A stretch of 29,420 nt of DNA from a virus, in IMG/VR virus record IMGVR_UViG_3300001589_000005, positions 459 through 29,878 of that record, one strand, 5' to 3'. Of this stretch, positions 1,299 to 13,647 are shown piece after piece (the first letter of the stretch is position 1; every line of letters begins with the position of its first letter). The notes under the pieces are model-generated. The model was given only the letters and a program-made list of their open reading frames with translations, was not told the origin of the DNA and ran no database searches. The position numbers and the translations under genes are program-made.

Positions 1299-1657
1299 TG
1301 ACACAGATTAAAAAACAATTTGATAATGTAATGGATGGTATAGACAATATGTTGAATGCCGCTGCATATGATTATTCACTAGGTGGTTATACACATAGGA
1401 CGCCAGATGATTTTCGTGAAAAATTTATGATTAAAGAAGGACAAAAATATATTAAGATTGGTCGTGTATCCGACCACACACAAGGCCGTATGGGTCAAGT
1501 ATGGGGATTTGTAGTCAATACAGATACAGATTCAAAATTTAAAAAGGGTGACTTACTTAAAGCTGCAGGATTTAATGCTCCTGCTCGTAACGCCGCTCGT
1601 GGTAATGTTCTAGAAGGGGGTTTCGGTATACGCTGGACTGGGCCTCTTTATCTTTAA
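1298..1657 (+). CDS. Conserved marine-phage hypothetical protein
   Basis: 119 residues, starting inside the TAATG overlap with the previous gene. The C-terminal half carries a compact pattern: KYIKIGRV, then QVWGFVVNTD, KFKKGDLLKAAGF, ARNAARGNVLEGG and a final RWTGPLYL. I recognise this signature from small hypothetical proteins of marine phages, where no function is assigned. The many Gly/Trp/aromatic residues and short beta-like stretches suggest a small beta-rich fold; this is inference. Nothing indicates membrane localisation. The pairing with the LPD29-like gene suggests a shared early host-interaction or replication-associated role, but there is no direct evidence. Confidence 0.65.
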   Translation: MTQIKKQFDNVMDGIDNMLNAAAYDYSLGGYTHRTPDDFREKFMIKEGQKYIKIGRVSDHTQGRMGQVWGFVVNTDTDSKFKKGDLLKAAGFNAPARNAARGNVLEGGFGIRWTGPLYL

Positions 1658-1678
1658 TCAGCGAAACAAGGAAACTAC

Positions 1679-1933
1679 ATGAAAAAACCTATGTACAAGA
1701 CTAACATCTTTGTAAATACAGATCGTACCTTTTTTGAAGGACTGCTACATCAGATAGGATTTGTAACAAAGGAGTCTAAGATACCACATATGAAAAAGCG
1801 CCAAGCGCTAAAACAATGTGTATCCTATACTGCACCGACAGAGAAAGAATCTGTGGATAAAGCGCTAGAGGCATTTGCCAATAAGGGTAAAAAGGCGTCT
1901 GATCTCTTTCATATGGAAACAATACAAATATGA
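1679..1933 (+). CDS. Hypothetical protein, 84 aa
   Basis: Basic, soluble 84-residue protein with no recognised motif. The ATG at 1679 has a good Shine-Dalgarno (AAGGA at 1668-1672, six bases from the start). The sequence alternates short strands (KTNIFVNTD) and predicted helices (RQALKQCVSYT, DKALEAFANKGKK). Its TGA overlaps the next ATG as ATGA, so the following membrane protein is probably translated by reinitiation. Family unknown. Confidence 0.6.
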   Translation: MKKPMYKTNIFVNTDRTFFEGLLHQIGFVTKESKIPHMKKRQALKQCVSYTAPTEKESVDKALEAFANKGKKASDLFHMETIQI

Positions 1934-2115
1934 TTGAGTGGTGGATGTTCGGCACATATTTAGCCGGTTCAGTTGTGACTTACTATTTGTGGGTAATCAA
2001 ACCACAAGCAAATGTTATTGAGGTAACAATAGATAAGTTAATTGCCGATGGATTCTTACGCTCTAAGGTAAGTAAGGATGGTGTTGTTGAAATTTTGAAG
2101 TGGAATGAGAAATGA
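1930..2115 (+). CDS. Small membrane protein, 61 aa
   Basis: One predicted membrane helix at residues 4-23 (WWMFGTYLAGSVVTYYLWVI) followed by a soluble tail of about 38 residues with a strand-helix-strand look (NVIEVTIDKLIADGFL, then GVVEILKW). The short N-terminus is MIE, so orientation cannot be told. It is coupled on both sides by ATGA overlaps (1930-1933 and 2112-2115). Such single-helix proteins are common in T4-like early regions and rarely characterised. No function can be assigned. Confidence 0.6.
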   Translation: MIEWWMFGTYLAGSVVTYYLWVIKPQANVIEVTIDKLIADGFLRSKVSKDGVVEILKWNEK

Positions 2116-2333
2116 GATATTTAAAAAATCATTGGGATTACGATATCCTTGGAATGGATAGTCCAGATTGGCCACTCGCTCTTCTGGATGAGAACTTAGC
2201 GGCAACTCGTCAAAATAACGTAAATGAGACTATTGGTATGTGTAGCACAGAATGGTCTACAAAGTATTGGAATAATGTGCTAAAAGCGTTAATCATAAAA
2301 TATGGCAATAAATTAAATGTTTCAATTAATTAA
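2112..2333 (+). CDS. Hypothetical protein, 73 aa
   Basis: Soluble 73-residue protein rich in Trp, Asn and Asp (HWDYDILGMDSPDWPLALLDENL). No family recognised. Its ATG overlaps the preceding stop as ATGA and no independent Shine-Dalgarno is obvious, which fits translational coupling. The last 17 bases overlap a possible 29-codon membrane peptide in another frame. Confidence 0.5.
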   Translation: MRYLKNHWDYDILGMDSPDWPLALLDENLAATRQNNVNETIGMCSTEWSTKYWNNVLKALIIKYGNKLNVSIN

Positions 2334-2406
2334 ATGGTGTCTATACGCTTTCCTAATTTGGTGGTTGATATGGATTACATATACTGCCGCGCTAATAATG
2401 GCATAA
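2317..2406 (+). CDS. Possible 29-aa membrane micropeptide
   Basis: ATG at 2317 opens 29 codons ending at TAA 2404-2406. The product is almost one membrane helix (MFQLIKWCLYAFLIWWLIWI, then TYTAALIMA) with several Trp. It overlaps the 3' end of the preceding gene and fills the otherwise empty gap before the epimerase gene. There is no clear Shine-Dalgarno, so expression would depend on coupling. The hydrophobic composition is the only support. Confidence 0.35.
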   Translation: MFQLIKWCLYAFLIWWLIWITYTAALIMA

Positions 2407-2415
2407 ATAGTTAAA

Positions 2416-3180
2416 ATGCGAATACTTATCACTGGACATAGGGGTTTCATCGGAAGCGCGCTCATGGATGCGCTAAAGGACGACCACGATATCGCTGGAC
2501 TAGATTCTGCAAGACCTACACCTAATCAAATAACCGACCATCAATGTATTACGAAAGCACCATTGCCGAATGATATAGATATGGTGATTCACCTTGCTGG
2601 TATAGGGGGTGTAAGAGAGTCAATAAATCGCCCTGCTGACTATTGGAAAACAAATGTTGAGGGTACAAAACGTATACTAGAACATTATAAGCACATAAGA
2701 TGCCTAGTTGCATCAAGTAGCACAGCATATGAGCCACATCTAAATCCATATGCTGCGAGTAAGTATGTAGCAGAATCAATACCACATAAGAACGTAGTAT
2801 TCATGAGGTTTCACACCGTATATAGTAGCACGCCCAGAAAGGGTATGCTATTTGATAGATTAATAAACAATGAATTAGAATATACAACAAATCACAGAAG
2901 AGACTTCATACATGTAAACGACATATGCAGTGCTATAAAGAAACTCATAAAACATCACCATATCAAGGGAGTAGTAGACATAGGTACAGGCACTAACATA
3001 TCAATACAAGATATACGCCCAGACCTACCATGCCATACAATAGAACAGTACCCAGAGATGGCATATGAGAGACATACGACCCTTGCTGACATTCGTACTA
3101 TGAAGAGTATAGCGTGGAAACCTACTATAAAGGTCAAGGATTTCATAAGAAAGAATAGACTAGCGGAAAAGAATGGGTAA
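2416..3180 (+). CDS. NAD-dependent epimerase/dehydratase (extended SDR)
   Basis: 254 residues of an extended short-chain dehydrogenase/reductase, the family that epimerises, dehydrates or reduces nucleotide sugars. The Rossmann NAD(P) motif GHRGFIG (G7, G10, G13) is at the N-terminus, followed by DIDMVIHLAG near 53-62, the LVASSSTAYEP active-site strand (Ser/Thr 100-103) and the catalytic YAASK pair (Tyr112, Lys116). Later conserved elements include MRFHTVYSSTPRKGML, RRDFIHVNDIC and VVDIGTG. The length is shorter than typical UDP-galactose or UDP-glucuronate 4-epimerases (about 310-340), mostly through a shortened C-terminal substrate domain. The exact sugar cannot be told. Likely role: making a modified sugar for virion or host surface glycans during infection. 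No strong Shine-Dalgarno precedes the ATG. Confidence 0.85.
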   Translation: MRILITGHRGFIGSALMDALKDDHDIAGLDSARPTPNQITDHQCITKAPLPNDIDMVIHLAGIGGVRESINRPADYWKTNVEGTKRILEHYKHIRCLVASSSTAYEPHLNPYAASKYVAESIPHKNVVFMRFHTVYSSTPRKGMLFDRLINNELEYTTNHRRDFIHVNDICSAIKKLIKHHHIKGVVDIGTGTNISIQDIRPDLPCHTIEQYPEMAYERHTTLADIRTMKSIAWKPTIKVKDFIRKNRLAEKNG

Positions 3181-3318
3181 TCATGGGATATTATGGGATT
3201 ATCGGACACTTTAATTAAATGGCAGAATAAACATATAGTTGTTGTGATTAAAGTCTGCAAGAGACCGAATTTTCTCTGAGAGCTTCCAAAAATAATACAG
3301 AATAAAACAAAAAAACAC

Positions 3319-3347
3319 TTGACAAGCGCTCCACATGTGTGTATAAT
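3319..3347 (+). promoter_or_regulatory. Consensus sigma70-like promoter P1
   Basis: TTGACA (3319-3324), 17-base spacer, TATAAT (3342-3347), with TGTGTG immediately before the -10. Both hexamers match the bacterial consensus exactly. The predicted start near 3354 would give a short RNA running into the hairpin at 3412-3429, or read through towards 3723. Confidence 0.85.
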
Positions 3348-3411
3348 AGTACTTGTATGCCCATCAGAATAACTATAGTAGCTACTAAGAGTAGCCTTAG
3401 AGATGCACAAA

Positions 3412-3429
3412 CAGAGAGTATTCTCTCTG
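3412..3429 (+). other. Short perfect hairpin downstream of P1
   Basis: CAGAGAG (3412-3418), loop TATT, CTCTCTG (3423-3429). It lies between promoters P1 and P2. No U-tract follows, so a classical intrinsic terminator is not supported; it could act as an RNA processing, attenuation or protein-binding element. Confidence 0.45.
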
Positions 3430-3448
3430 GCAGCCGCTGAGAAAGTAC

Positions 3449-3477
3449 TTGACATTAGCCGCTAAGTGTGGTAGTAT
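3449..3477 (+). promoter_or_regulatory. Sigma70-like promoter P2
   Basis: TTGACA (3449-3454), 17-base spacer, TAGTAT (3472-3477), with GTGTGG directly upstream of the -10. The spacer contains AGCCGCTAAG, a near copy of AGCCGCTGAG just upstream of the -35, which suggests an operator pair. The predicted start is near 3484, just before the 13-bp inverted repeat. Confidence 0.75.
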
Positions 3478-3483
3478 AAAGAG

Positions 3484-3616
3484 AATCAGAAGAGAGCTAC
3501 TCATTAAGGTGGGTTGGTTGACAGAGAAAGTTCCATAATGATGGTGTCATGATGTGTTGAGTAGCTCTCTGATGTTCCCTACCAGCTAGCATAAGGGGGG
3601 GTTAAAACTCAGCGGC
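3484..3616 (+). ncRNA. Candidate structured non-coding RNA
   Basis: The predicted P2 transcript begins with AATCAGA and then AGAGAGCTACTCA (3491-3503), whose exact reverse complement TGAGTAGCTCTCT is at 3558-3570, enclosing a 54-base loop. A further ATC/GAT pairing beyond a bulge could extend the stem. All ATG-started frames inside are only a few codons long (for example ATGGTGTCATGA), so this part is not coding. It is not a tRNA: the stem is too long and there is no TpsiC loop. No known RNA family is recognised, and the 3' end is arbitrary. Confidence 0.4.
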
Positions 3617-3662
3617 CTTGGGGCAATCTATAAATGCAATAGTAGGTACTTAAAGAATTTAC

Positions 3663-3691
3663 TTGACATTTGCTTCATTGTGTGGTATGCT
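3663..3691 (+). promoter_or_regulatory. Sigma70-like promoter P3
   Basis: TTGACA (3663-3668), 17-base spacer, TATGCT (3686-3691), preceded by GTGTGG at the same position relative to the -10 as in P2; P2 and P3 also share the ten bases ACTTGACATT. The predicted start near 3698 gives a leader of about 25 bases before the ATG at 3723, so it should drive the 3723-8154 operon. Confidence 0.75.
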
Positions 3692-3722
3692 GATTCGTAT
3701 AATGATGATGAAAGGTTTTACA

Positions 3723-3953
3723 ATGAAATACAAATCTACAATTTATGTTACTAATCAACTTGGTAAGGGTAAGTTTGAACTTATAGATGCTTTAGGAAAT
3801 ACTGAAAAGGAATCATATGATAATGTGATACACTCTTTTGAGTCTAAAGAATATTGGAAACATTCCAATACAGTTTGGATTACTGCCAATGATATAGTAT
3901 GTATTGAAACAGAGTATGTTCCCCAAAGATATACTGCAACGGAGATGGTGTAA
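3723..3953 (+). CDS. Hypothetical protein, 76 aa
   Basis: I place the start at ATG 3723 (MKYKSTIYVTNQLGKG) because the longer open frame would begin inside promoter P3, and AAAGG at 3711-3715 is correctly spaced from this ATG. The 76-residue product is soluble, with alternating strands and Trp/Asn-rich turns (SKEYWKHSNTVWITANDIVC). It looks like a small alpha/beta or beta protein, and no family was recognised. It is the first gene of the operon and its TAA overlaps the next ATG (TAATG). Confidence 0.6.
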   Translation: MKYKSTIYVTNQLGKGKFELIDALGNTEKESYDNVIHSFESKEYWKHSNTVWITANDIVCIETEYVPQRYTATEMV

Positions 3954-4108
3954 TGAAATACAAAGGTGCAACTACTCATCTTGAAAAAGAGAGAAAGTTT
4001 CTAGGTCTGACTTGGAAAGAATTATTGATATTCATAGAACGTAATCCCTATGCTTTTCCTAATAAGACTATAGAGGCGTATAATATTTACAAAGGTTATA
4101 TTGTATGA
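3953..4108 (+). CDS. Hypothetical protein, 51 aa
   Basis: A short gene starting in a TAATG overlap, with GGAG at 3941-3944 eight bases upstream. It encodes MKYKGATTHLEKERKFLGLT followed by WKELLIFIERNPYAFPNKTI and a C-terminal EAYNIYKGYIV. The helical, amphipathic centre (LTWKELLIFIERNP) hints at a small helical adaptor or DNA/RNA-binding protein, but there is no recognised family. It ends in an ATGA overlap with the next gene, so it sits in an unbroken coupled chain, which supports it being real. Confidence 0.55.
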   Translation: MKYKGATTHLEKERKFLGLTWKELLIFIERNPYAFPNKTIEAYNIYKGYIV

Positions 4109-4368
4109 ATTATGATTTCAAAAGTATGACCCCTACATATACTAAGGATTGGTATGTTAAGTGGTTCTCTTCTATATTATTAATTATCGCACAGGCACTG
4201 ACCTCTGTGGGTGGATTAGATCCTATCAATCTAATCTTCTTTTGGTTTGGTCTGTTAGGTTGGTTGATTGTAGGATATTGGTGGAATGATCGTGCATTAA
4301 TTTTTATCAATGGTGTTGGGTTATTCATTAACACTAGTGGTATAATGAAACATTACTTAGGAGCATAA
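4105..4368 (+). CDS. Small polytopic membrane protein, 87 aa
   Basis: Three predicted hydrophobic segments: about residues 17-36 (VKWFSSILLIIAQALTSVGG), 41-60 (INLIFFWFGLLGWLIVGYWW) and 64-82 (ALIFINGVGLFINTSGIMK). The spacing and the WNDRALIFIN loop recall the small three-helix DUF6552/SWEET-like proteins of marine bacteria, but I hold that loosely. It would sit in the host inner membrane. The start is coupled by ATGA to the previous gene, with AAAGG at 4091-4095. Its role in infection is unknown; transport, membrane stress or superinfection exclusion are all guesses. Confidence 0.6.
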   Translation: MNYDFKSMTPTYTKDWYVKWFSSILLIIAQALTSVGGLDPINLIFFWFGLLGWLIVGYWWNDRALIFINGVGLFINTSGIMKHYLGA

Positions 4369-4369
4369 T

Positions 4370-4723
4370 ATGAGTGGTATGCATTTACTTCCAGCATATT
4401 GGAATACAAACAATCACAAAAAGCGTAAGAAGAAAAGAGTTACGGAGAAAATGGCTGCCGCTATTGCAGAACATGAGAAGTATCTCAAACGTATGGGATA
4501 CGACCCTAGTTCCAAAGCAAAGGCCCCACCCCCCAAAACTGAGCGTGTTTCAGTTGCACTACCCCAAAAAGATATATCCGAATATGATTGGAGTCCTTGT
4601 CTAAGGGGTCAGAAGTATACATTAACTAAATCTTATAACATAGGACAGGCGTACAATAAGGGTGGTCTGGTTGTTCTATCAGAGAAGGAAGCATCAGATG
4701 CCAGTACTGGAAAAAGACGTTAA
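4370..4723 (+). CDS. Conserved marine-phage hypothetical (LLPxYWxTNNxKKR family)
   Basis: 117 residues, AGGAG at 4359-4363 before the ATG. The N-terminal signature HLLPAYWNTNNHKKRKKKR and the C-terminal QKYTLTKSYNIGQAYNKGG followed by LVVLSEKEASDASTGKRR match a family of small basic proteins common in marine podo- and myophages (typical ending: pro-ile-ile, a Glu-Ala motif and a final Arg-Arg). The middle is Pro/Lys-rich and likely disordered. No experimentally defined role is known to me; the basic N-terminus suggests nucleic-acid contact. The 3' end overlaps the start of the next gene by 26 bases in another frame. Confidence 0.7.
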   Translation: MSGMHLLPAYWNTNNHKKRKKKRVTEKMAAAIAEHEKYLKRMGYDPSSKAKAPPPKTERVSVALPQKDISEYDWSPCLRGQKYTLTKSYNIGQAYNKGGLVVLSEKEASDASTGKRR

Positions 4724-5336
4724 GACTTTCGATGTAGTCTCAGCAGGGGTCAAACCTCAAAAACGGTTTGAGAAGTATTATCGGAAAGGTTTCGGAACGG
4801 AGAACGTAGGCCCGTTTCTTGCGAGTATGATTCGTATGGTACGTCCTCAGCGAATACTGGAAGTGGGAGTTGGGTATACGACTCCGTTTATTGCCGAGGC
4901 GATAGAACAGAACTTTCAAGTAGACTTTGATGGTAATCACGATATGGATTACTACGAGAAACCTTATGATCCTCGTTATGTAATTGTAGATGATATGTCG
5001 CTCGGTCGGGTCGAAGTGCCACAGAGAAATTGGATAGAATTAATTGACGGTAAGTTTCAAGGTATGCGAGAATGGATAGAACCGAAGTATGGTAAGTTTG
5101 ATTTCGTATGGTTTGATTGTGGTGGGCCGCCAGAGTATGAACAGTTTATGAAAGAGTATTGGGATTTGTGTTCTGAATATGTGTTCTTTCACTTTACTTA
5201 CTTTAGAGGACAACCAAATAAGAACATGGATGCGATACTAAATAATGCGACTGGCAATGCATATCGTATGGATATTGTAGAACCAAATAAGTTTCGTCAA
5301 GGAAGTATAACTATGTTAAGGAAAGTGAATGATTGA
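4698..5336 (+). CDS. SAM-dependent methyltransferase-like protein
   Basis: 212 residues from ATG 4698, chosen over an upstream in-frame start at 4662 because GGAAG at 4687-4691 is correctly placed. RILEVGVGYTTPF (residues 52-64) is a class I methyltransferase motif I with the usual acidic/glycine pattern. A later strand, KFDFVWFDCGGPPEY (residues 133-147), resembles motif IV of the Methyltransf_24 type, with Asp140 as a possible catalytic or metal ligand. The region between is long and contains YVIVDDM. The substrate is unknown; relatives act on sugars, small molecules or proteins. It opens the modification-enzyme section and is followed without a gap by two membrane micropeptides. The gene looks somewhat less AT-rich than its 3' neighbours. 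Confidence 0.75.
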   Translation: MPVLEKDVKTFDVVSAGVKPQKRFEKYYRKGFGTENVGPFLASMIRMVRPQRILEVGVGYTTPFIAEAIEQNFQVDFDGNHDMDYYEKPYDPRYVIVDDMSLGRVEVPQRNWIELIDGKFQGMREWIEPKYGKFDFVWFDCGGPPEYEQFMKEYWDLCSEYVFFHFTYFRGQPNKNMDAILNNATGNAYRMDIVEPNKFRQGSITMLRKVND

Positions 5337-5430
5337 TCCAAATGGAGATTCTAGAAAATATCTTGTATTAACAATTCTAGTCATAACGGTGTTAATCTGT
5401 ATGAAGATGGCTGGTGCAAGTGGTCTATGA
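5329..5430 (+). CDS. Membrane micropeptide, 33 aa
   Basis: ATG at 5329 overlaps the end of the methyltransferase gene by eight bases and has AAGGA at 5319-5323. The product is a short polar head (MIDPNGDSRKY), one hydrophobic helix (LVLTILVITVLICMKMAG) and a tiny tail. The stop overlaps the next ATG (ATGA). The chain of overlaps plus the clean membrane helix make it a likely gene. Function unknown. Confidence 0.55.
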   Translation: MIDPNGDSRKYLVLTILVITVLICMKMAGASGL

Positions 5431-5564
5431 TTAGTTTTTTTGTAAAGTTTTATTTAATATGTGGTCTTATCTATACTACGGTAATATATAATGATGACAT
5501 GCGAACACAACGTGCTATGATGAGAGGACGGCCTAGTGAAGAATGGATGAGAGTTGGCGAATGA
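5427..5564 (+). CDS. Membrane micropeptide, 45 aa
   Basis: Starts in the ATGA overlap at 5427 and ends in another ATGA overlap at 5561-5564. It has an N-terminal membrane helix (ISFFVKFYLICGLIYTTVIY) followed by a charged cytosolic-looking tail with MRTQRAMMRGRPSEEWMRV. With the preceding 33-aa peptide it forms a pair of single-helix proteins inserted between two enzyme genes. No family recognised. Confidence 0.55.
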   Translation: MISFFVKFYLICGLIYTTVIYNDDMRTQRAMMRGRPSEEWMRVGE

Positions 5565-5851
5565 AGAAACCTTACCTTACAAATCCTAACATGTTAGTTC
5601 CTTATTACTTAATGTTATCATATTGTTATTACAAAGAAAACGAAAGTCTAATAGACGATACAGAATATGACCAGATATGTAGAGAACTTATAGAGAAATG
5701 GGATACAATAGAACACTGGCACAAACCATTACTTGATTTAGAATCACTTAAAGCAGGAACTGGATACAATATTAAATATCCCCAAAGAGTTGTACAAGCT
5801 TCTTTATCACTCTTAAAAGAATCTCAACTAAGACCTACGGAGATGGATTGA
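5561..5851 (+). CDS. Stand-alone NAD+ ligase domain-Ia-like protein
   Basis: 96 residues from ATG 5561 (MKKPYLTNPN), the start fixed by the ATGA overlap. Residues 21-37, YCYYKENESLIDDTEYD, align without gaps to the NMN-binding Ia segment of bacterial LigA (E. coli YLYHVMDAPEIPDAEYD). Equivalents of LigA Tyr22, Asp32, Tyr35 and Asp36 are Tyr23, Asp33, Tyr36 and Asp37; His23 is replaced by Tyr24. No adenylation domain follows: the protein ends after a short KAGTGYNIKYP and a helical tail. It cannot be a ligase by itself. It could bind NAD/NMN or pyridine-nucleotide-like ligands, or be a decoy or partner; these are inferences. Similar short proteins occur in marine phages, as far as I recall. 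Confidence 0.6.
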   Translation: MKKPYLTNPNMLVPYYLMLSYCYYKENESLIDDTEYDQICRELIEKWDTIEHWHKPLLDLESLKAGTGYNIKYPQRVVQASLSLLKESQLRPTEMD

Positions 5852-6561
5852 TGAACAATATGATAAAATCACCCTTTAAACAACCATGGCACTTTGATAA
5901 ATTCAGAGAAGATAAAGAAGGCGAATATTCCAAGTGTTTTGGTCACTTTGTTGGTGATTGGACAGAAGATATAATTACCGCTAGAGAGATGGGAGATATG
6001 CCCCAAACAGATAATAATTTTTTGGGTGACTTTGATTCGCCCCAATTGGCCAAACAAAGAAAAGCATATGAGAATAATCAAATGAAGGATATTGTTCTAT
6101 ATAATAATGCCGATGGAATAGATTACTTTAATATGCTTCCAGTATTTGAAAATATGATCTCTACACTACAGTTGAATAGAGAACAGAAATTAGGATGCAG
6201 ATTTAATGACTTGTATCCTAACGATCAACTTATGTGGCACATTGATAAGTATAAGGGGAAAGGTGAACTTAATAAGAGTACACTTGATGACCCTAATTTT
6301 AAATATAAACCAAGTGATAGGATACGATTCTTAATTATGTTAGAAGATTGGGAGCCAGGACAGATACTACAGTTTGGTAATAGAACATACACACAGTGGC
6401 GTGCTGGTATGGTAATGTGTTGGGAGTGGTCAACTCTTCCTCATTGTGTATTGAACGGAAGTTGGAAACAAAGACCTGCTCTACAGATTACAGGCGTTAT
6501 GACAGATAAGACAATAGAGATTATCAAAGAAGGAAATTCAGAAACAATTTATAATGTATAG
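5851..6561 (+). CDS. 2OG-Fe(II) dioxygenase-like hydroxylase
   Basis: 236 residues from ATG 5851; GGAG at 5839-5842 favours this start over an in-frame TTG three bases upstream. The double-stranded beta-helix iron site is readable: HID (His130, Asp132) in LMWHIDKYKG, the distal His198 in LPHCVLNGSW, and the 2-oxoglutarate-binding Arg208 in QRPALQITG. Between them, RIRFLIMLEDWEPGQILQFG and the WRAGMVMCWEW strands match the core of prolyl/aspartyl-hydroxylase-like enzymes. It would couple 2-oxoglutarate decarboxylation to oxidation of an unknown substrate. The stop overlaps the radical SAM start by eight bases, tying the two enzymes together. Confidence 0.8.
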   Translation: MNNMIKSPFKQPWHFDKFREDKEGEYSKCFGHFVGDWTEDIITAREMGDMPQTDNNFLGDFDSPQLAKQRKAYENNQMKDIVLYNNADGIDYFNMLPVFENMISTLQLNREQKLGCRFNDLYPNDQLMWHIDKYKGKGELNKSTLDDPNFKYKPSDRIRFLIMLEDWEPGQILQFGNRTYTQWRAGMVMCWEWSTLPHCVLNGSWKQRPALQITGVMTDKTIEIIKEGNSETIYNV

Positions 6562-7618
6562 CGGAAAACCTTTAAAGGTTCATATAGAATTATCTAACAA
6601 GTGTAATGCCATGTGTCCACAGTGTGGTAGAAACACTTCTGCTAATGGTGAATTAAGATTACAGGCTGGTATGCAAACTACAGAACTTAGACTTGAAGAT
6701 ATAGAAAGAATCTTTGATGATGAGTTTTGGAACACACACAAAATATCGAATGTAAGATTTGTCGGAAACTATTCTGACCCTATCGCAACTAAAGATTTAC
6801 ATGAGATTGTAGAGTTCTTTATATTTAATAATCCAAAGATAATACTTAATGTTACTACTAACGGAAGTTTAAAGACAGAAGAATGGTGGTATCATTTCGG
6901 AAGTATGTTTAATAACAAAAATCGTAGAGTTGTGTTTGCACTAGATGGTACAGATAATATTACACATGCATTGTATAGACATAGAACAAACTACGATAAG
7001 ATTATACGAAATGCAAAATCATTTATATCCGCTGGTGGTAATGCAGAATGGTCTTTCTTAGTGTTCAAACATAATGAACATCAACTAGAAGAAGCAAAGA
7101 GATTATCGGAAGAGTATGGATTCAAAAAATTTATTTCTGTGTATACCACAAGATTTCACAATGGTAAAGGATACAAAAAATATAAGTTAGATGGGGTGGA
7201 TTATAAATTAGAAGAGACAACAACAAAGGAGATGCCAAACCTTTCTACAATACCTTGGCCGCCAGAGAACCTAGATATATCGTGCAAAGCTTTACAAGAT
7301 GACTATGAAGAGATATTTGTAAACTACACTGGTGAGATAGTTCCTTGTTGTTGGGTTGGTGCTTCAATACACAGATGGAGAACCAAAGATACTTATTTCA
7401 AACCATCGTATCCAGTTGAGGAAGATGGACTTATAGGTGAGATACTAAAAGACGATTCACATGATGCAATAAAATATGGTGCAACAAAAGTCATGACTAA
7501 TCAGTGGTTTACTAAACTAAAAGAATCTTGGGTTGACAAACCATGCAGAGTATGTTATCGTGTCTGTAATAAAAAAATAAATTTACTAAAAGAGAAGAGG
7601 ACGGAAGAATGGGTTTAA
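6554..7618 (+). CDS. Radical SAM enzyme with SPASM-like C-terminal cluster
   Basis: 354 residues. The N-terminal CNAMCPQC (Cys17, Cys21, Cys24) is the CxxxCxxC motif that ligates the SAM-cleaving 4Fe-4S cluster, set in the standard HIELSNKCN context. Barrel strands follow (VRFVGNYSDP, LNVTTNG, RRVVFALDG). The C-terminal region holds Cys244, the GEIVPCCWVG pair Cys265-Cys266 and the final CRVCYRVC set (Cys331, Cys334, Cys338), as in SPASM/twitch auxiliary-cluster domains. Family members modify peptides, proteins or small molecules by radical chemistry. It is sandwiched by short overlaps between two 2OG oxygenase genes, so the three are probably co-translated. The target is not evident; I see no obvious RiPP precursor next to it. 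Confidence 0.88.
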   Translation: MYSGKPLKVHIELSNKCNAMCPQCGRNTSANGELRLQAGMQTTELRLEDIERIFDDEFWNTHKISNVRFVGNYSDPIATKDLHEIVEFFIFNNPKIILNVTTNGSLKTEEWWYHFGSMFNNKNRRVVFALDGTDNITHALYRHRTNYDKIIRNAKSFISAGGNAEWSFLVFKHNEHQLEEAKRLSEEYGFKKFISVYTTRFHNGKGYKKYKLDGVDYKLEETTTKEMPNLSTIPWPPENLDISCKALQDDYEEIFVNYTGEIVPCCWVGASIHRWRTKDTYFKPSYPVEEDGLIGEILKDDSHDAIKYGATKVMTNQWFTKLKESWVDKPCRVCYRVCNKKINLLKEKRTEEWV

Positions 7619-8154
7619 CGGATATATTAAAAAGTTCTAATCATATGCACAATGCAATAGTTCGTATACCGTTATTACATATTAATGTTTTAGACAAGGT
7701 AGAGAATACACACATACAACATGCTGTTCGCAGACATGCAACGGATGATAAACATTTATCAAACGTAAAAGCAAATATGACTTCTTGGTATCTACATGAA
7801 GAGAGTGATGTTGTTAAAGGACTTTCGGAACTTGTCGTTATAAAGTGCCAGAAAATGTCTGGTAATTTTAAATTACATAATAGTGAATGTTGGGGTAATG
7901 TCCAAACATTTTCAGAAGAAGTTATAGAACATACACATTGGCCATTTCTATGGTCTTGGTGCTACTATGCCAAAGTGGATAGAACATCTCCACCACTTAT
8001 CTTTCCAGAAGTCAAACAAGTTTTTGAACCAGAGTTGGGTGACTTAATTATCTTTCCAAGTTATATAAAACATTTTGTTCCTAAAAGTGAATCGGAAAAC
8101 GAAAGAATAGTTGTCGCTGGTAATATTAGTTTTGAGTTCACAAAACCTTGTTGA
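7609..8154 (+). CDS. Second 2OG-Fe(II) oxygenase (TIGR02466/PF13759-like)
   Basis: 181 residues, start ATG 7609 with GGAAG just upstream and a 10-base overlap with the radical SAM gene. The second half matches the phage/bacterial putative 2OG oxygenase family: SECWGNVQ, EHTHWPFLWSWCYYAKVD (His108, His110), GDLIIFPSYIKHFVP (His155) and ENERIVVAGNISFEF (Arg166). These correspond to the iron-binding histidines and the 2-oxoglutarate-binding arginine. The first 60 residues (IPLLHINVLDK) match the usual N-terminal strand. The reaction is presumably a hydroxylation of unknown substrate. Last gene of the operon; a 106-base gap with a late promoter follows. Confidence 0.8.
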   Translation: MGLTDILKSSNHMHNAIVRIPLLHINVLDKVENTHIQHAVRRHATDDKHLSNVKANMTSWYLHEESDVVKGLSELVVIKCQKMSGNFKLHNSECWGNVQTFSEEVIEHTHWPFLWSWCYYAKVDRTSPPLIFPEVKQVFEPELGDLIIFPSYIKHFVPKSESENERIVVAGNISFEFTKPC

Positions 8155-8205
8155 TTGTTTCCATTTAGACAACAGTGTTATTCGATTTAAAATTACTCTT
8201 TCCAT

Positions 8206-8213
8206 TATAAATA
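8206..8213 (+). promoter_or_regulatory. T4-type late promoter TATAAATA
   Basis: TATAAATA at 8206-8213, 55 bases ahead of the ATG at 8261, in the gap after the enzyme operon. This octamer is the T4-family late promoter recognised by the gp55-type sigma factor. It marks the change from early/middle to late genes. Confidence 0.65.
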
Positions 8214-8260
8214 TAAGTGTAATCAAATAAGATTATATTTCATACAAAGGGAGAACCAAA

Positions 8261-8500
8261 ATGAGTGCTATCAGCACAGCCGTATGGCAAGAAACATGCA
8301 ACATTTGTGAAAAAGTACACAAAGTTTTACACAACACTTTAGTCAATTTTCAAAGAGGTAGACAACTATCTGCAAACAGACAGATTATGCATCAACTACC
8401 AACACTTAGACATTTATCCAAAGATTTAGATTTAGATTTTCATCTTGACAAAATGAATGACAACACAAATAAAAGTTATGACGCTAAACTAATAAAGTAG
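8261..8500 (+). CDS. Hypothetical late protein, 79 aa
   Basis: Soluble, largely helical protein with a strong Shine-Dalgarno (AAGGGAG, about seven bases before the ATG). The N-terminal part has two Cys in a CNIC pair (WQETCNICEKVHKVLHNTL), then FQRGRQLSANRQIMHQLPTL and an acidic DLDLDFHLDK stretch. The RQLSANRQI helix vaguely recalls DUF1127-type small proteins, but I would not rely on it. It has its own late promoter upstream and another downstream, so it may be made as a single-gene late transcript. Function unknown. Confidence 0.6.
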   Translation: MSAISTAVWQETCNICEKVHKVLHNTLVNFQRGRQLSANRQIMHQLPTLRHLSKDLDLDFHLDKMNDNTNKSYDAKLIK

Positions 8501-8506
8501 GTTTCT

Positions 8507-8514
8507 TATAAATA
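8507..8514 (+). promoter_or_regulatory. T4-type late promoter TATAAATA
   Basis: TATAAATA at 8507-8514, immediately after the stop of the 79-aa gene and 47 bases before the preferred ATG at 8554. It probably drives the 8554-9876 group. Confidence 0.65.
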
Positions 8515-8553
8515 ATCCGAACACTTAATTGATGAGAGATGAGGGGTGTACGG

Positions 8554-9045
8554 ATGATAGATCCAATTACGGCGGTCGCAGCCGCTACGGCTGCGTTCAA
8601 TACAATTAAACAAGGTTTCCAACTTGGTAAAGATATCGAGTCTATGTATGGTGACATGGGTAGGTGGATGGGTGCCGTAAGCGATATTGATCAGGCGGAT
8701 AAGTTAAATAAGAAACCACCGTTGTTTAAAAAAATATTTGATGGTTCTAGTATAGAACAAGAAGCAATGGATATTTTTGCTGCTCAGAAAAAAGCAGCTG
8801 CCATGGAACAAGAACTAAAGACTTTTGTTAACTTTACACACGGGCCTGGTTCATGGGATGAGATACTTAGACTACAAGGTAAGATTCGTAAAGATAGACA
8901 AAAATTAATCTATGAACAACAAATGAGACAAAGAGAAATCCTAAATGCAATTGGATTAATAATCTTGGTGGGTGGAATTGGATTTGCTGTAGTTATGGGT
9001 GCTTCTATTATTGTAGACATGCACGGCCATCCAAGTGGTTGGTAA
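8554..9045 (+). CDS. Conserved T4-like tail-region protein with C-terminal membrane helix
   Basis: I choose ATG 8554 (MIDPITAVAAATAAFNTIKQ) over the in-frame ATG at 8539, because GAGGGG at 8541-8546 is placed for 8554 and the MIDP start is typical of this family in marine T4-like phages. The 163 residues comprise an Ala-rich amphipathic N-terminus, DIESMYGDMGRWMGAVSDI, a KKPPLFKKIFDGSSIEQEAM segment, a long charged coiled-coil-like helix (about 90-130) and one hydrophobic helix near the end (AIGLIILVGGIGFAVVMGAS). The family occurs next to tail genes and is often annotated as hypothetical or structural. The membrane anchor suggests action at the host envelope or transient membrane association during assembly. 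Confidence 0.7.
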   Translation: MIDPITAVAAATAAFNTIKQGFQLGKDIESMYGDMGRWMGAVSDIDQADKLNKKPPLFKKIFDGSSIEQEAMDIFAAQKKAAAMEQELKTFVNFTHGPGSWDEILRLQGKIRKDRQKLIYEQQMRQREILNAIGLIILVGGIGFAVVMGASIIVDMHGHPSGW

Positions 9046-9263
9046 TGGAACTTGTTTTTGCTTTAGTAACTTATCTTGGAATGAATAAGATTGATGAAAC
9101 TTACTTTCGCAATATAGATGATTGTATATACTTCCAAGAAAGATTAAACAAACAACCCAGAGTTCCTAAAAGAGACCCAGAAGGAAATGATGTGCCTGGC
9201 GCTAAATTTGTTGCTGTATGTCAACCCTCAAAAGTAAACCTAAATAAAACGAAGGTATATTAA
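9045..9263 (+). CDS. Small protein with hydrophobic N-terminus, 72 aa
   Basis: Start ATG 9045 in a TAATG overlap with the preceding gene. The first residues are hydrophobic (MELVFALVTYLGMN), followed by YFRNIDDCIYFQERLNK, a KRDPEGNDVPG turn and FVAVCQP. Two Cys (in DDC and AVC) could form a disulfide if exported. The pattern is familiar from small hypothetical proteins beside tail genes in marine T4-like phages. It may be a short signal-anchored or secreted protein; function unknown. Confidence 0.6.
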   Translation: MELVFALVTYLGMNKIDETYFRNIDDCIYFQERLNKQPRVPKRDPEGNDVPGAKFVAVCQPSKVNLNKTKVY

Positions 9264-9593
9264 ATGTTTAAATGGATTGTATTAGTCATGCTACTAATCC
9301 CACTTAATCTATATGGTGGAGCAAAAACTGTCGGCGCAAAGAAAGACTATACACGACAGCAAAAAATTCAAAGAGGTGATATAATAGAAAAAAAGTACAC
9401 CACTTGTAGATTAAAGAAGATTGTCCAATCACGATCTGGTGAACAGGCTTGTATATATCAAGGTGGTAATAAAACTTATGAATTAATGTTTGATAATAAC
9501 TGTCCAAAACAATTTAAATGTATTTACAATCCTAACAGTAAAGAACCAAATATAGACAATGTGATGGATAGTTTAAATTCAATAGGTAAGTAA
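9264..9593 (+). CDS. Predicted secreted cysteine-containing protein, 109 aa
   Basis: Clear signal peptide: MFKWIVLVMLLIPLNLYGGA, with probable cleavage after the small residues near 18-20. The mature part is basic and contains four Cys (TTCRLKK, GEQACIYQGG, NNCPKQFKCIYNP), suggesting two disulfides in the periplasm. There is no lipobox Cys. The ATG directly follows the previous stop. With its two upstream neighbours it forms a trio with envelope-targeting signals under one late promoter. It resembles short beta-rich proteins of marine phages without assigned role. Confidence 0.6.
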   Translation: MFKWIVLVMLLIPLNLYGGAKTVGAKKDYTRQQKIQRGDIIEKKYTTCRLKKIVQSRSGEQACIYQGGNKTYELMFDNNCPKQFKCIYNPNSKEPNIDNVMDSLNSIGK

Positions 9594-9594
9594 T

Positions 9595-9876
9595 GTGATA
9601 TATGAACATGAAGATTTGCAAATAGATTCAACTGTATCATCTAAAACAAGATTATATAAAGATGATAAATTAGTTTTTATTGGTGATGGTTATAAAGCAA
9701 TCACTATGATGATTAATAATAGCAAAAATCCAGAACCAGTAAAACAAAAGTTTCATGCCCAATTAACTATGAGAGAAAAACCAAAATTTTCTAAAGGTGA
9801 TGATATAGAAACATTGAGAAAGCAAGCACTAGATGACCATGCTCAATCCTTAGTGAAGAAGAAGAGAAGGCGATAA
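9595..9876 (+). CDS. Hypothetical basic protein, 93 aa (GTG start)
   Basis: Starts with GTG at 9595; the overlapping ATG at 9593 is closed at once by TGA, so the rare start is required. AGG at 9584-9586 serves as Shine-Dalgarno. The N-terminal half looks beta (STVSSKTRLYKDDKLVFIGD), then a short helix (YKAITMMINNSK), and the C-terminus is strongly basic (SLVKKKRRR). No family recognised. Position just upstream of gp5 suggests a tail-assembly or virion accessory, by context only. Confidence 0.55.
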   Translation: MIYEHEDLQIDSTVSSKTRLYKDDKLVFIGDGYKAITMMINNSKNPEPVKQKFHAQLTMREKPKFSKGDDIETLRKQALDDHAQSLVKKKRRR

Positions 9877-9882
9877 ACTCTT

Positions 9883-9890
9883 TATAAATA
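9883..9890 (+). promoter_or_regulatory. T4-type late promoter TATAAATA (before gp5)
   Basis: TATAAATA at 9883-9890, 27 bases upstream of the gp5 ATG at 9910, with GGAG at 9901-9904 in between. The fixed short leader recurs at three other late genes. Confidence 0.75.
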
Positions 9891-9909
9891 ATATAGAATA
9901 GGAGTCAGC

Positions 9910-11250
9910 ATGTCAAATAATTTTATGGGCCTAGATGGTTTCGTCTGGTTTACTGGTGTCGTTGAAGATAGAAACGATCCTGCTTTACTTGGACGAGTCC
10001 GTGTAAGATGTTTAGGTTTTCACACAGAAGATAAAGTGAAAATACCTACATCATCACTACCTTGGGCTCACATAATGTTACCGATAACAACACCGTCTAT
10101 GAATGGTAAAGGTCAAAGCATACCATTTATGGTTGAGGGTACATGGGTTATTGGTTTCTTTAGAGATGCTGAATTACAACAACAACCAGTAATTATTGGA
10201 ACACTGCCAGGCTATCCACAAACAGTATCGGATAAGACAAAAGGATTTAATGATCCAAATGGTGTGTATCCTCTATCAACCCACTTAAATGAAAGTGATG
10301 TAAACAGATTAGCAAAAGGTGGAGCGGATGATAAACCACATGAAATCATTGAACTCAAAGAATCTAAAAGAGATAAACAAGTTGCCGTTGCCTCAGGCGA
10401 ACCTTGGGATGAACCAGCTGGGTCACATTCATCATCCAAGTATCCTTACAACCATGTATTTGAATCAGAGGTTGGACATATCAAAGAATACGATGACACA
10501 CCGAGCAATGAAAGAATACACGAATATCATAAAACTGGAACATTCTACGAAATGCGACCAGACGGTTCAAAAATCACAAGGGTGGTTGGTAACAATTATG
10601 AAGTGGTTCACGGATCGGATTACGTCCATGTTAAAGGATCAGCAAACCTAACAGTTGATGACACATTAAACATAAAAGCAAAAACAATAAACATGGTTGC
10701 TGATACTATGAATAAAACAATAGGAACGCTTACAGAAACAATAACAACACATAATGAAACAACTGGAACGCTGACAGAAACATATACAACTAAAACGGAA
10801 ACTGCGACAACTGGTAATACGACTTATACATCAGGCGATGTAGTTGCAAGTAATATATCTCTAGTAGGACACCAACATGTAGATAATGCTGGACTTGCTG
10901 CTGGAGTTACCACTGTGCCTATTGGTGGAAGTGGTTCAGTAACATCTGCTCAAGGAGATACCGTGACAGCAATTTCATCTGGTATAACTGCTACAGAACC
11001 AACATCTCTAGATCTAACTACAGTCTCAAATGTAACATTACCGACTGCTACATCATCATATCCAGATACACTGGTAAAAACAGATTCTACTGGTACAGTT
11101 AATAGTACAATATTGGCTGACAATGCTGTAACACAAGATAAACTTGCAGACGATGCTGTAGGTTCTGCTGAAATGAAAACTCTATCGACACTACTCATCA
11201 AGAATAGTGGTGGTACTACATTAAAAACAGTTCACGGTGCTGGAGAATAG
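9910..11250 (+). CDS. gp5: gp5-like baseplate hub/spike protein, lysozyme-less
   Basis: 446 residues. Residues about 8-105 are the gp5 OB-fold (GFVWFTGVVEDRNDP, LGRVRVRCLGFHTEDK, LPWAHIMLP, VEGTWVIGFFRD, PVIIGTLPG). The segment 175-245 (YPYNHVFESEVGHIKEYDDT, GTFYEMRPDGSK) is the conserved spike core shared with VgrG/gpV proteins. Residues 245-315 are Thr-rich beta-helix-like repeats (GTLTETITTHNETTGTLTET). A GHQH motif (His321, His323) follows; in P2-type spikes an HxH binds iron at the tip. About 120 further residues end in a module nearly identical to the C-terminus of the fibre-like protein at 26874. T4 gp5 is 575 residues with an internal lysozyme; that domain is absent here. The trimer should form the membrane-piercing centre of the baseplate. 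Confidence 0.88.
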   Translation: MSNNFMGLDGFVWFTGVVEDRNDPALLGRVRVRCLGFHTEDKVKIPTSSLPWAHIMLPITTPSMNGKGQSIPFMVEGTWVIGFFRDAELQQQPVIIGTLPGYPQTVSDKTKGFNDPNGVYPLSTHLNESDVNRLAKGGADDKPHEIIELKESKRDKQVAVASGEPWDEPAGSHSSSKYPYNHVFESEVGHIKEYDDTPSNERIHEYHKTGTFYEMRPDGSKITRVVGNNYEVVHGSDYVHVKGSANLTVDDTLNIKAKTINMVADTMNKTIGTLTETITTHNETTGTLTETYTTKTETATTGNTTYTSGDVVASNISLVGHQHVDNAGLAAGVTTVPIGGSGSVTSAQGDTVTAISSGITATEPTSLDLTTVSNVTLPTATSSYPDTLVKTDSTGTVNSTILADNAVTQDKLADDAVGSAEMKTLSTLLIKNSGGTTLKTVHGAGE

Positions 11251-11258
11251 TATAAATA
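11251..11258 (+). promoter_or_regulatory. T4-type late promoter TATAAATA (before gp25)
   Basis: TATAAATA begins directly after the gp5 stop codon, 26 bases upstream of the gp25 ATG, with AAAGGA between. Confidence 0.75.
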
Positions 11259-11276
11259 CTAATAAAGGAATTACAA

Positions 11277-11705
11277 ATGTCGCAATATGATGCTCAGTTA
11301 AATAATAACACATCTAGAAATAATAGACAATACTCTGATTTAGATTTATTCTTTAGCAGAAAAACATCTAATAGCGATATAAATACACTTACAGACGTTC
11401 AAGCGGTAAAGAGAAGTGTTCGTAATTTAGTTCAACTAGATTACTTTGAAAAACCTTTTCATCCAGAGATTGCATCTGGCATTAGGGGAATGTTATTTGA
11501 ATTGATGACTCCCTTTACTGCTCAAGTAATTGCTAGACAGATTGAGGATGTAATTAATAATTTTGAACCTAGGGCCAAACTTGTTGGTGTAACTGCGATA
11601 CCAGATTTGGATCGTAATGCTTATGAAGTTAAGGTAGAATTTTATGTTGTTAACACACCGACAGAGTTAGTAGACTTAACGGTATTCTTAGAAAGATTGA
11701 GATAA
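11277..11705 (+). CDS. gp25: gp25-like baseplate wedge subunit
   Basis: 142 residues, close to T4 gp25 (132). Typical GPW/gp25 features: DLDLFFSRKTSNSDINTLTD near the N-terminus, AVKRSVRNLVQLDYFEKPF, HPEIASGIRGMLFELMTPFT (a central helix), IARQIEDVINNFEPRAKLVG and a final strand pair (YEVKVEFYVVNTP, LVDLTVFLERLR). The protein is a sheath-polymerisation-like wedge component that contacts gp6 and gp53 in T4. AAAGGA before ATG 11277 sets the start; gp6 begins one base after its stop. Confidence 0.93.
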   Translation: MSQYDAQLNNNTSRNNRQYSDLDLFFSRKTSNSDINTLTDVQAVKRSVRNLVQLDYFEKPFHPEIASGIRGMLFELMTPFTAQVIARQIEDVINNFEPRAKLVGVTAIPDLDRNAYEVKVEFYVVNTPTELVDLTVFLERLR

Positions 11706-11706
11706 G

Positions 11707-13647
11707 ATGGCAGATACAAATAATCAGAAAGTACGAGTAACGGAATTAGACTTTGATGAAATTAAAGCAAACCTAAAATCTTTTCTAAAAAACCAAACAG
11801 AATTTAGAGATTATGATTTTGAAGGTAGTGGTATGAGTGTTCTATTAGATACACTAGCATACAATACTCACTATCTAGGTTATAATGCAAACATGTTAGC
11901 AAATGAAATGTTTTTAGATAGTGCGGCTTTAAGAAGTTCTGTAGTATCACATGCAAAGACTTTAGGATACGAAACATCTTCATGTCGTGCTCCGAAAGCA
12001 ACTATAGGTATTGCATTAACAACAACTAACTCAACAGCCACTATGCCTGCTGGTACTAAGTTTACAAGTACAGTGGATGGAGTATCATATCAATTCGTAA
12101 CAACCTCGACTGTCCAATCTACAAGTTCTGGTAATACTGTGAACTTTGATAATACAGAAATTTTTGAAGGAACATATGTTACCACAAAATATACAGTGGA
12201 TAGCACTGATACGGAACAAAGATTTATTATCACTGATAACAGAGCCGATACTACAACTTTAAATGTAACAGTTCAAAATTCATCAACCGATACATTTACT
12301 ACAACCTTTACAAAAGCAACTGATATATCACAGCTGTCTATTAATAGTAATGTGTACTTTTTACAAGAAATAGAACAAGGTAGATATGAAGTTTATTTTG
12401 GTGATGGTGTTGTAAGTAAATCATTAACAGATGGGAACATCGTAATACTAAATTATGTTGTTACAAATAAAACTGCAGCCAATGGTGCAAATGCTTTTTC
12501 ATCACCAAGTGCTATTGGTGGTATTAGTGACATTGGTATTACACTCGTTGCTTCCGCTGCTGGTGGTGCAGAACCAGAAAGTATAAATTCAATAAAATTA
12601 AATGCCCCACTTGACTATGCGGCCCAAGGTAGATGTGTTACTAGAAATGACTACCAAGTATTTACTAAGAAGTTATTTGCAAATGCACAAGCCGTTTCTG
12701 TGTGGGGGGGAGAAGATGGAAGTTTTGATTCATCTTTAGGTGTTACTGCAACACCACAATATGGAAAAGTTTATATTTCAATTAAATCAAATACTGGACA
12801 GAACTTAACATCAGCACAAAAATCATCACTAGTTAAATCTTTTAGTCCATTTACCGTTGCATCAATAACACCAGTGATTGTGAATCCAGAAACAACATTC
12901 TTAATTCTACAAGTTAATTTTATGTTTGATTCTACAAAAACTGTTTTGGTTGGGCCAGACTTAGAAGCGTCTGTTATAACTGCAATTACAAATTACAATG
13001 ATACATCTTTAAAAAATTTCAATAGTCCATTTAGACACTCTGTTCTTACTGGATTAGTAGATAGTGTTGATGCTGCTATTTTAAATAACACTACAATTGT
13101 TACCATGGCAAAATTCTTTACACCGATTATATCAACAAATGTCTCCTACACAATTAGTTTTAACAATCCACTATATAATCCTCATTCTGGCCATAACGAG
13201 CTTGGTGGTGGTATTATTGCATCTACTGGATTTAAAATTGATGGTAGAACAGAAGAAATGTTTTTTGATGATGATGGAAAAGGAAACCTAAGAATGTATT
13301 ATCTACAAGGTTCTGCGAGAACTTATTATGCCACGCAAGCAGGAACAGTAAATTATTCTACTGGTGTGGTATCTACAAATGCATATAAATTTTCAAGTGT
13401 ATCAAATGTTGATGGACTTACTTCTACACAAATTAGAATGACAGCAACACCAAATTCAAATGATGTTGTACCAGTTAGAAATCAACTACTAGAAATAGAT
13501 TTAGTTAATTCAAGTATATTAAGTAATGTAGATGCTACTGCCACAACTGGTGTTGGTTATACGGTTGCCTCAACTGGTGGAGATGCACAAACCACAACTA
13601 CGACAGTTCAAACTAATCCATCTAGTGGTTCAACAAGTGCATATTAG
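11707..13647 (+). CDS. gp6: gp6-like baseplate wedge protein (gpJ family)
   Basis: 646 residues (T4 gp6 is 660). The N-terminal 100 residues are highly characteristic: VTELDFDEIKANLKSFLKNQ, DYDFEGSGMSVLLDTLAYNT, NANMLANEMFLDSAALRSSV and KTLGYETSSCRAPKA. The middle has EQGRYEVYFGDGVVSKSLTD and the core LDYAAQGRCVTRNDYQVFTK common to gp6/gpJ baseplate proteins. The C-terminal third is a Thr/Ser/Asn-rich beta region ending in TTTTTVQTNPSSGSTSAY. It forms dimers that join neighbouring wedges in the T4 baseplate. A run of seven G at 12704-12710 within the gene is in frame. Confidence 0.93.
   Translation: MADTNNQKVRVTELDFDEIKANLKSFLKNQTEFRDYDFEGSGMSVLLDTLAYNTHYLGYNANMLANEMFLDSAALRSSVVSHAKTLGYETSSCRAPKATIGIALTTTNSTATMPAGTKFTSTVDGVSYQFVTTSTVQSTSSGNTVNFDNTEIFEGTYVTTKYTVDSTDTEQRFIITDNRADTTTLNVTVQNSSTDTFTTTFTKATDISQLSINSNVYFLQEIEQGRYEVYFGDGVVSKSLTDGNIVILNYVVTNKTAANGANAFSSPSAIGGISDIGITLVASAAGGAEPESINSIKLNAPLDYAAQGRCVTRNDYQVFTKKLFANAQAVSVWGGEDGSFDSSLGVTATPQYGKVYISIKSNTGQNLTSAQKSSLVKSFSPFTVASITPVIVNPETTFLILQVNFMFDSTKTVLVGPDLEASVITAITNYNDTSLKNFNSPFRHSVLTGLVDSVDAAILNNTTIVTMAKFFTPIISTNVSYTISFNNPLYNPHSGHNELGGGIIASTGFKIDGRTEEMFFDDDGKGNLRMYYLQGSARTYYATQAGTVNYSTGVVSTNAYKFSSVSNVDGLTSTQIRMTATPNSNDVVPVRNQLLEIDLVNSSILSNVDATATTGVGYTVASTGGDAQTTTTTVQTNPSSGSTSAY

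Follow-up and report, generated by a model that had tools for sequence, protein, structure and literature searches.

A modular and probably early operon of putative tailoring enzymes ahead of the baseplate genes of a T4-like marine phage

We analysed a 29,420-nucleotide stretch of viral DNA (hereafter the window; positions 459 to 29,878 of IMG/VR record IMGVR_UViG_3300001589_000005, a virus record of 71.9 kb) and focus here on a gene block at 3717-8154 that encodes a putative methyltransferase (MT), two 2-oxoglutarate (2OG)/Fe(II) oxygenases (OGA and OGB) and a radical S-adenosylmethionine (SAM) enzyme (RS). Tentatively, and without calling it probable, we favour reading this block as an early operon, modular in make-up, that encodes tailoring enzymes, with the host envelope as their probable, predicted substrate. 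The carrier is a T4-like marine myovirus: among sequenced phages its gp6 ranked closest to those of Melnitz (52% identity), Mosig (51%) and HTVC008M (50%), all T4-like marine phages filed under Kyanoviridae. Laboratory strains of SAR11 or OM43 support the growth of related phages.

Gene content of the block in related phages

The four enzyme genes lie on the plus strand, with MT at 4698..5336, OGA at 5860..6561, RS at 6554..7618 and OGB at 7609..8154. A preliminary description made from the sequence alone had joined them, together with two membrane micropeptides and a LigA-like domain, in one translationally coupled operon. All of these open reading frames (ORFs) at 4698-8154 were recovered, and so was the coupling, as OGA overlaps RS by 8 nt and RS overlaps OGB by 10 nt. 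The probable start of OGA is the ATG at 5851 or 5860, where the alignment of its relatives begins, and not the TTG at 5848.

The same description had proposed that the oxygenase-radical SAM-oxygenase triad modifies one substrate in sequence. Among eight close relatives covering the site, OGA was present in three (loci L006, L007 and L008) and absent from five (L002-L005 and L010), of which L003, L004 and L010 gave near-identical scores and are not independent; L009, cut off at the OGA site, is not among the eight. In L002, the gene for the ligase-like domain (LigN) leads straight into RS, while the other L002 genes compared are 96-100% identical to those of the window at the DNA level. In L003, a 57-amino-acid (aa) membrane peptide occupies the position of OGA. 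An ORF of 205 aa, with the look of an endonuclease by eye, was also seen inserted between OGA and RS in one relative (L007:502-1119).

Moreover, the variation of RS does not follow that of MT or OGB. DNA identity between the window and L003 is 99% for RS, 96% for LigN, 92% for MT and 85% for OGB, and the corresponding values against L008 are 86% for RS, 100% for MT, 98% for OGB and 92% for OGA. Judged from these comparisons RS is a mosaic, closer than its neighbours in the first relative and further in the second. Two more distant loci, L087 and L088, have MT followed directly by OGB, without RS or OGA. In 14 further OGB loci (L218-L231, of which L218 comes from the same contig as L087 and L230 from the same contig as L088), gp5 was found downstream of OGB every time, although only the start of gp5 is covered in L219 and L224; no match to RS or OGA was detected at E 1e-4 in these loci, some of which cover less than 1 kb upstream. 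MT appeared among them only in L218 and L230, and OGB was doubled in eight, perhaps nine. Conversely, 27 other OGA loci (L183-L209) gave no match to MT or OGB, and RS was matched only in L207.

By this distribution no gene of the set is kept as widely as OGB, which MT accompanies in some loci, and RS and OGA are additions open to exchange. As the enzymes come and go separately, a fixed pathway is less likely than a set of tailoring tools that can be swapped. The triad is thus not kept as a unit, and the idea that a fixed set modifies one substrate step by step is not supported.

Promoter boundary and expression timing

Three sigma-70-type promoters sit on the plus strand in the intergenic region (3180-3717) at the head of the block. 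The first (3319..3347, TTGACA-N17-TATAAT) matches at 12 of 12 positions, with 0.08 such sites expected per window strand from 60 first-order resamplings. The second (3449..3477, TTGACA-N17-TAGTAT) and the third (3663..3691, TTGACA-N17-TATGCT), which immediately precedes the block's first gene, both carry a TG before the -10 element. All three are conserved in L003, L005, L008 and L010 (the alignment comprised L003, L005 and L008; L002, L006 and L007 do not extend that far), and comparable sites precede the block in L087 and L088. The window as a whole contains six TTGACA-17 sites versus 0.7 expected.

The block is closed by the first plus-strand T4-late box, TATAAATA, at 8206..8213, and all eight plus-strand copies in the window lie at or beyond 8206. 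Six of the eight are placed 20-60 nt ahead of gene starts, namely those of d79, p168, gp5, gp25, a 499-aa ORF at 18752 and an ORF at 29083. Such placements make up 4.5% of positions, giving a rough binomial P of 2e-7 for a hand-compiled set of 32 gene starts that includes the ORF at 29083, itself noticed through its box. These boxes recur ahead of the same genes in relatives. No plus-strand copy was found before the end of OGB in any of nine close or MT-bearing loci, and in all of the nine additional OGB loci examined, some with little upstream DNA, the first box came after OGB. The baseplate genes gp5 (hub/lysozyme), gp25 and gp6 follow at 9910..13647 on the plus strand, with late boxes ahead of gp5 and gp25.

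For phage Melnitz, sigma-70 sites have been treated as early and TATAAAT as late, with no middle promoters recognised (PMC9004378). In S-PM2 and Syn9, some genes carry both promoter types (PMC2984593). The arrangement of sigma-70-type promoters at the head of the block and TATAAATA only after OGB is newly described here, and from it the block is probably expressed early.

Directly downstream of the 3449 promoter, a hairpin with 13-bp arms, AGAGAGCTACTCA...TGAGTAGCTCTCT, was noted at 3484-3580. Its folding z-score is -2.3, with 6 of 200 shuffles folding equally well, and in L003 and L005 the arms differ in sequence but, by eye, look able to pair; it is possibly a small phage RNA. Neither tRNAs nor RNA families at the gathering threshold were found in the window.

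Enzyme families and their neighbourhoods

RS matches the radical SAM model PF04055 (38 bits, cut-off 29.5), and the cysteines of its CX3CX2C cluster (C17, C21 and C24) are invariant in a 37-row alignment. Twitch-type radical SAM enzymes are characterised by a single auxiliary-cluster set, CX(9-15)GX4C, plus two C-terminal cysteines. The corresponding set in RS is C244-x15-G260-x4-C265 with C334-x3-C338; in the same alignment C265, C266, C334 and C338 are invariant and C244 is at least 90% conserved. The seeds used to search for RS relatives were free of auxiliary-cluster cysteines but included NKCNAMCP and VFKHNEHQ, so that the conservation of the CX3CX2C and FKHNEHQ stretches, the latter being a motif of this viral family, arises partly by selection. 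The SPASM label first attached to RS was not borne out, since PF13186 gave no match at E up to 1 and the cysteine pattern is of the twitch type; the assignments of a radical SAM enzyme, two 2OG oxygenases and, weakly, a methyltransferase held. Membership in NF033640 (N_Twi_rSAM) was likewise rejected (44.1 bits versus a cut-off of 170, with the model matched only from position 109). RS shares with NF033640 the radical SAM core and auxiliary-cluster cysteines, and falls in a separate family. It reaches no curated NCBIfam family cut-off and has only distant relatives in the PDB.

OGB passes the cut-off of 2OG-FeII_Oxy_5 (PF13759; 38.6 bits versus 27) and remains below that of TIGR02466 (33.3 versus 62.5). 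The hallmark of 2OG/Fe(II) oxygenases is an HxD/E...H metal triad with a downstream arginine. In OGB the residues are HxH (108, 110), H155 and R166, invariant in six of six rows, and HxH likewise replaces HxD, by eye, in P-HM2 and HTVC008M relatives. OGA has no Pfam match, and its H127, D129, H195 and R205 (HxD...H...R) are invariant in all 18 aligned homologues. Assignment of OGA to the Asp/Asn hydroxylases (PF05118) was rejected, as OGA itself gave no match at E 0.1 and only two of the 18 aligned family members matched (best E 0.031). A structure model of OGA from a four-row alignment reached a pLDDT of 31, and no conclusion was drawn from it. Neither oxygenase has an AlkB-type Pfam match.

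MT has no Pfam match and no match in sequenced phages, but its profile matched a COMT structure (E 0.0023), its low-confidence predicted structure (pLDDT 57.9, pTM 0.62) gave COMT 7cvu as the best Foldseek match (E 8.3e-7), and its EVGxGYTT motif is invariant in four of four rows. These data weakly suggest a COMT-like class I O-methyltransferase. LigN (5543..5851) is a standalone DNA-ligase Nlig-Ia-like domain (PF22745, 48.5 bits, cut-off 27). It is present in L002-L005 and L010 and had no match in L006 and L008, both of which cover the site; additional matches to the short phage families phrog_19233 and phrog_6466 were noted.

Ratios of dN/dS against relatives were 0.15-0.21 for RS and 0.17-0.24 for OGB (three pairs each), 0.11-0.18 for MT (two pairs, with dS saturated at 2.3 in that with L088) and 0.37-0.44 for OGA (two pairs). 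Given these values, 0.11-0.44 over the ten pairs, all four enzymes look kept by purifying selection, OGA least strictly. Mutation of catalytic residues in most homologues, which the preliminary description had named as grounds for doubt, is not what we found; with their motifs intact, the four enzymes look real.

Relatives of RS are encoded on at least 599 stretches of one viral collection and on 191 stretches of bacterial and archaeal genomes. Neighbourhood statistics were taken from 32 dereplicated loci of 70 (69 with an ORF), drawn from the best 80 of the at least 599 viral stretches, and so lean towards closer relatives. Radical SAM proteins (PF04055) accounted for 43 of the 128 nearest neighbours. 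A methyltransferase-like protein of about 200 aa was present at 21 of the 32 loci (22 ORFs, with one overlapping ORF dropped from the alignment and the member from L040 left out); its label comes from motifs seen by eye, and no PDB entry matched its profile credibly (best E 0.31). We rejected the idea that MT belongs to this family, the profile comparison giving a probability of 0.3%. The largest neighbour cluster (64 ORFs at 26 of the 32 loci) was built by single linkage and may include other proteins; the count of PF04055 matches among the nearest neighbours is the firmer figure.

In the RS tree, which took in 14 of the 80 genome-collection loci kept (of 191), the clade of the window is sister to L011 (support 99/94, 43% identity). 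The gene order in L011 is a homologue (44%) of the window gene at 28058-29053, an epimerase 43% identical to SDR, the methyltransferase-like protein and the RS homologue, with a PF03567 sulfotransferase further along. SDR is the nucleotide-sugar epimerase-like gene at 2416..3180 (plus strand) of the window, which the preliminary description had suggested as a source of sugar, with a surface glycan among the substrates it considered; the clustering in L011 lends the link to a surface glycan and the epimerase indirect support. The window gene at 28058-29053 has no PHROG match and follows a tail-fibre-like ORF, and downstream lies the counterpart cluster of the window's own genome, about 22 kb from the operon. 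This tail-region cluster lacks RS and contains a protein of the same methyltransferase-like family, an Asp_Arg_Hydrox 2OG protein (31.7 bits, cut-off 22.6) and a carbamoyltransferase. More distant homologues (22-25% identity) in Mosig and CP220 are found amid genes annotated as aminotransferase, carbamoyltransferase or sugar-transferase-like. A 148-kb relative, G001, has upstream of SDR two NF033640 proteins (235 and 234.5 bits) and another radical SAM gene scoring best to MoaA, below the cut-off; two of its genes match the RS profile, the second about 50 kb away. From the company of the nearest relative of RS we infer a sugar or envelope substrate, more weakly than early expression and a role on the host.

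The remaining genes of the block, all on the plus strand, are a 117-aa protein (4370..4723) without a Pfam match, which in several more distant relatives likewise lies upstream of OGB, and the hydrophobic micropeptides mp1 (33 aa, 5329..5430; homologues in L002-L006, L008 and L010) and mp2 (45 aa, 5427..5564; homologues in L002-L005, L008 and L010). MT overlaps mp1 by 8 nt, mp1 overlaps mp2 by 4 nt and mp2 overlaps LigN by 22 nt. Elsewhere in the same record, downstream of the window, we noted a TctA transporter gene (L244:9404-11946; PF01970, 267 bits) preceded by a gene resembling, by eye, its periplasmic partner TctC, together a phage-borne pair of the tripartite tricarboxylate transporter type. 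A second OGB-type gene, 28% identical to OGB, occurs at L244:19189-19737 (about 48.7 kb in G000) next to a terminase-like ORF (by eye), with like matches in G001 and G002.

Possible roles and comparison with known systems

In the favoured reading, the region would form the enzyme-coding end of a transcription unit of early type, lying in the variable gap just upstream of the late-promoted baseplate genes. Host RNA polymerase would make the proteins early, and each enzyme would carry out one tailoring step (O-methylation, hydroxylation, or radical oxidation or rearrangement) on sugars of the host surface or on precursors of these. Acting alongside the tail-region cluster, they might alter the infected cell's envelope, for instance blocking superinfection. 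The parts need not act sequentially on one molecule and could therefore be lost or swapped singly. Several observations weigh against this reading. No glycosyltransferase was recognised in the 3717-8154 block; the glycosyltransferase-like neighbours were picked by eye, and neither of the two tested matched a Pfam model at E 0.01. Only 1 of the 128 RS neighbours matched a glycosyltransferase model, and RS relatives outside the clade of the window lie mostly amid radical SAM genes and the methyltransferase-like gene, not proven sugar genes. No enzyme of the block has a known substrate. As to timing, three of the six TTGACA-17 sites lie elsewhere (865, 7533, inside RS, and 27879), and looser sigma-70-like sites at 1-12000 are not above chance (44 versus 51.2 in shuffles), so that the early-promoter argument rests on a few near-perfect conserved sites. 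Counted on both strands, TATAAATA is in modest excess (9 versus 4.3 expected, with 6 of 100 shuffles reaching 9), and the late-box argument is carried by position and conservation. A TATAAAT(G) heptamer at 3629, identical in the window and three of three aligned relatives, might give the head of the block an additional late promoter.

The strongest rival, which we regard as rather unlikely, is that the enzymes have no joint function and that a gain-and-loss hotspot ahead of gp5 gathered unrelated enzymes with their own substrates under shared promoters. The independent coming and going of OGA, RS, MT and LigN, the mosaic nature of RS, the 205-aa ORF in L007 and the membrane peptide that replaces OGA in L003 are all as expected from such a hotspot. 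It accounts less well for the tight translational overlaps, for purifying selection on all four enzymes and for the like chemistry of several of them (oxygenases, radical SAM enzyme, methyltransferase), 2OG and methyltransferase-like genes recurring in the tail-region cluster. Another possibility, which we consider improbable, is that OGB, with or without its partners, hydroxylates or methylates the hub gp5 or the tail fibres. The constant position of gp5 downstream of OGB, in L218-L231 and in the clade of the window, speaks for it, as do 2OG genes that HTVC008M carries between its hub and wedge genes and that P-HM2 carries upstream of gp25-gp6. However, the promoter boundary falls between OGB and the late genes, and a block that is probably early weighs against virion modification. 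Moreover, two more distant OGB relatives (L232 and L233, 32%) had no gp5 match in their flanks, and one Melnitz record has no 2OG annotation ahead of gp5, where many genes are hypothetical and the three tested did not match OGB. From the sequence data we infer an action on the host rather than on the virion.

A sequential pathway, with MT, OGA, RS and OGB acting in turn on one peptide, protein or metabolite, seems quite improbable. Gene order and overlaps would suit it, and RS scores distantly to peptide maturases and MoaA, all far below cut-offs; yet the triad is not conserved, OGA being missing from L002 despite the near identity of its other compared genes, and no precursor peptide was noticed, although no search was aimed at one and the micropeptides were not tested as substrates. 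Modification of nucleic acids or tRNA by MT, the 2OG oxygenases and a MoaA-like radical SAM enzyme is, in our estimate, highly improbable. TrmR (5zw3, rank 4) and MnmM (8h26, rank 27) were among the Foldseek matches of MT, oxygenases and MoaA-like enzymes of these kinds do occur in RNA and DNA modification, and early-type promoters would suit a translation-related role. Against this, the MT model is of low confidence and its COMT matches score equally well or better, the sister cluster of RS looks sugar-like, and AlkB-type matches are lacking in both oxygenases.

Islands of glycan type that are rich in radical SAM genes have already been published for such phages. The host-recognition islands of pelagimyophages contain variable radical SAM cassettes as well as lipopolysaccharide-type glycosyltransferases; a change of the O-chain against coinfection has been proposed for them (PMC7029224). 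They resemble the present block in belonging to T4-like marine phages, in occupying a hypervariable site in the structural region, in having radical SAM cassettes that vary from one near relative to the next alongside sugar-type enzymes, and in the proposed anti-coinfection change of the surface. The pelagimyophage island described there lies between VrlC and gp14 with tail fibres, whereas the operon here is upstream of gp5 (neither VrlC nor gp14 was itself identified in this analysis), is headed by sigma-70-type promoters of its own and lacks a recognised glycosyltransferase. One T4-like genome has also been reported to carry 12 radical SAM genes (PMC5332604). Having several such genes per genome is a trait shared by G001, and the 2OG-radical SAM-2OG order is not described in the portion of that report available. 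Nor was a description of the gene order of this block found in the literature searched, as far as its accessible text extends.

For the single enzymes, the closest counterparts of OGB are the PF13759 / phrog_81 oxygenases of marine T4-like phages (HTVC008M gp036 and P-HM2 PHM2_046), and OGB, too, passes the PF13759 cut-off; gp036 scores 51.7 bits and occupies a comparable interval, between the hub gene and gp25. Unlike them, OGB closes an early-type block and is joined by MT, RS and OGA. MT finds its best profile and fold matches among COMT-type class I O-methyltransferases and differs from them in having no Pfam match. Three genes annotated as "DNA endonuclease V", HTVC008M gp034 and gp039 (L098:4215-4703 and 6550-7035) and P-HM2 denV (L096:2037-2504), were seen to have the look of 2OG oxygenases (compare the label of phrog_274). 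HTVC008M gp039 matches PF13640 with 32.9 bits (cut-off 27), gp034 and denV match 2OG models below cut-off, and the labels are probably a propagated mis-annotation.

Taking the favoured reading of an early, modular tailoring operon further, we also considered a lytic phage with an early, host-promoted envelope-tailoring operon set apart from the tail-region glycan-type cluster, in which MT, RS and the two oxygenases would put an unusual decoration, of sugar or lipid, on the living host ahead of virion formation, and in which the exchange of RS alleles between close phages would reflect a serotype-conversion arms race. This version is doubtful. In any case, the analysis separates an over-read "pathway" from a real, modular set of genes, and predicts that the genes serve early modification of the host and are not late virion genes. 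As relatives of RS occur on so many viral stretches, with no curated family reached and only distant structures at hand, establishing what one member acts on would shed light on many uncharacterised viral genes.

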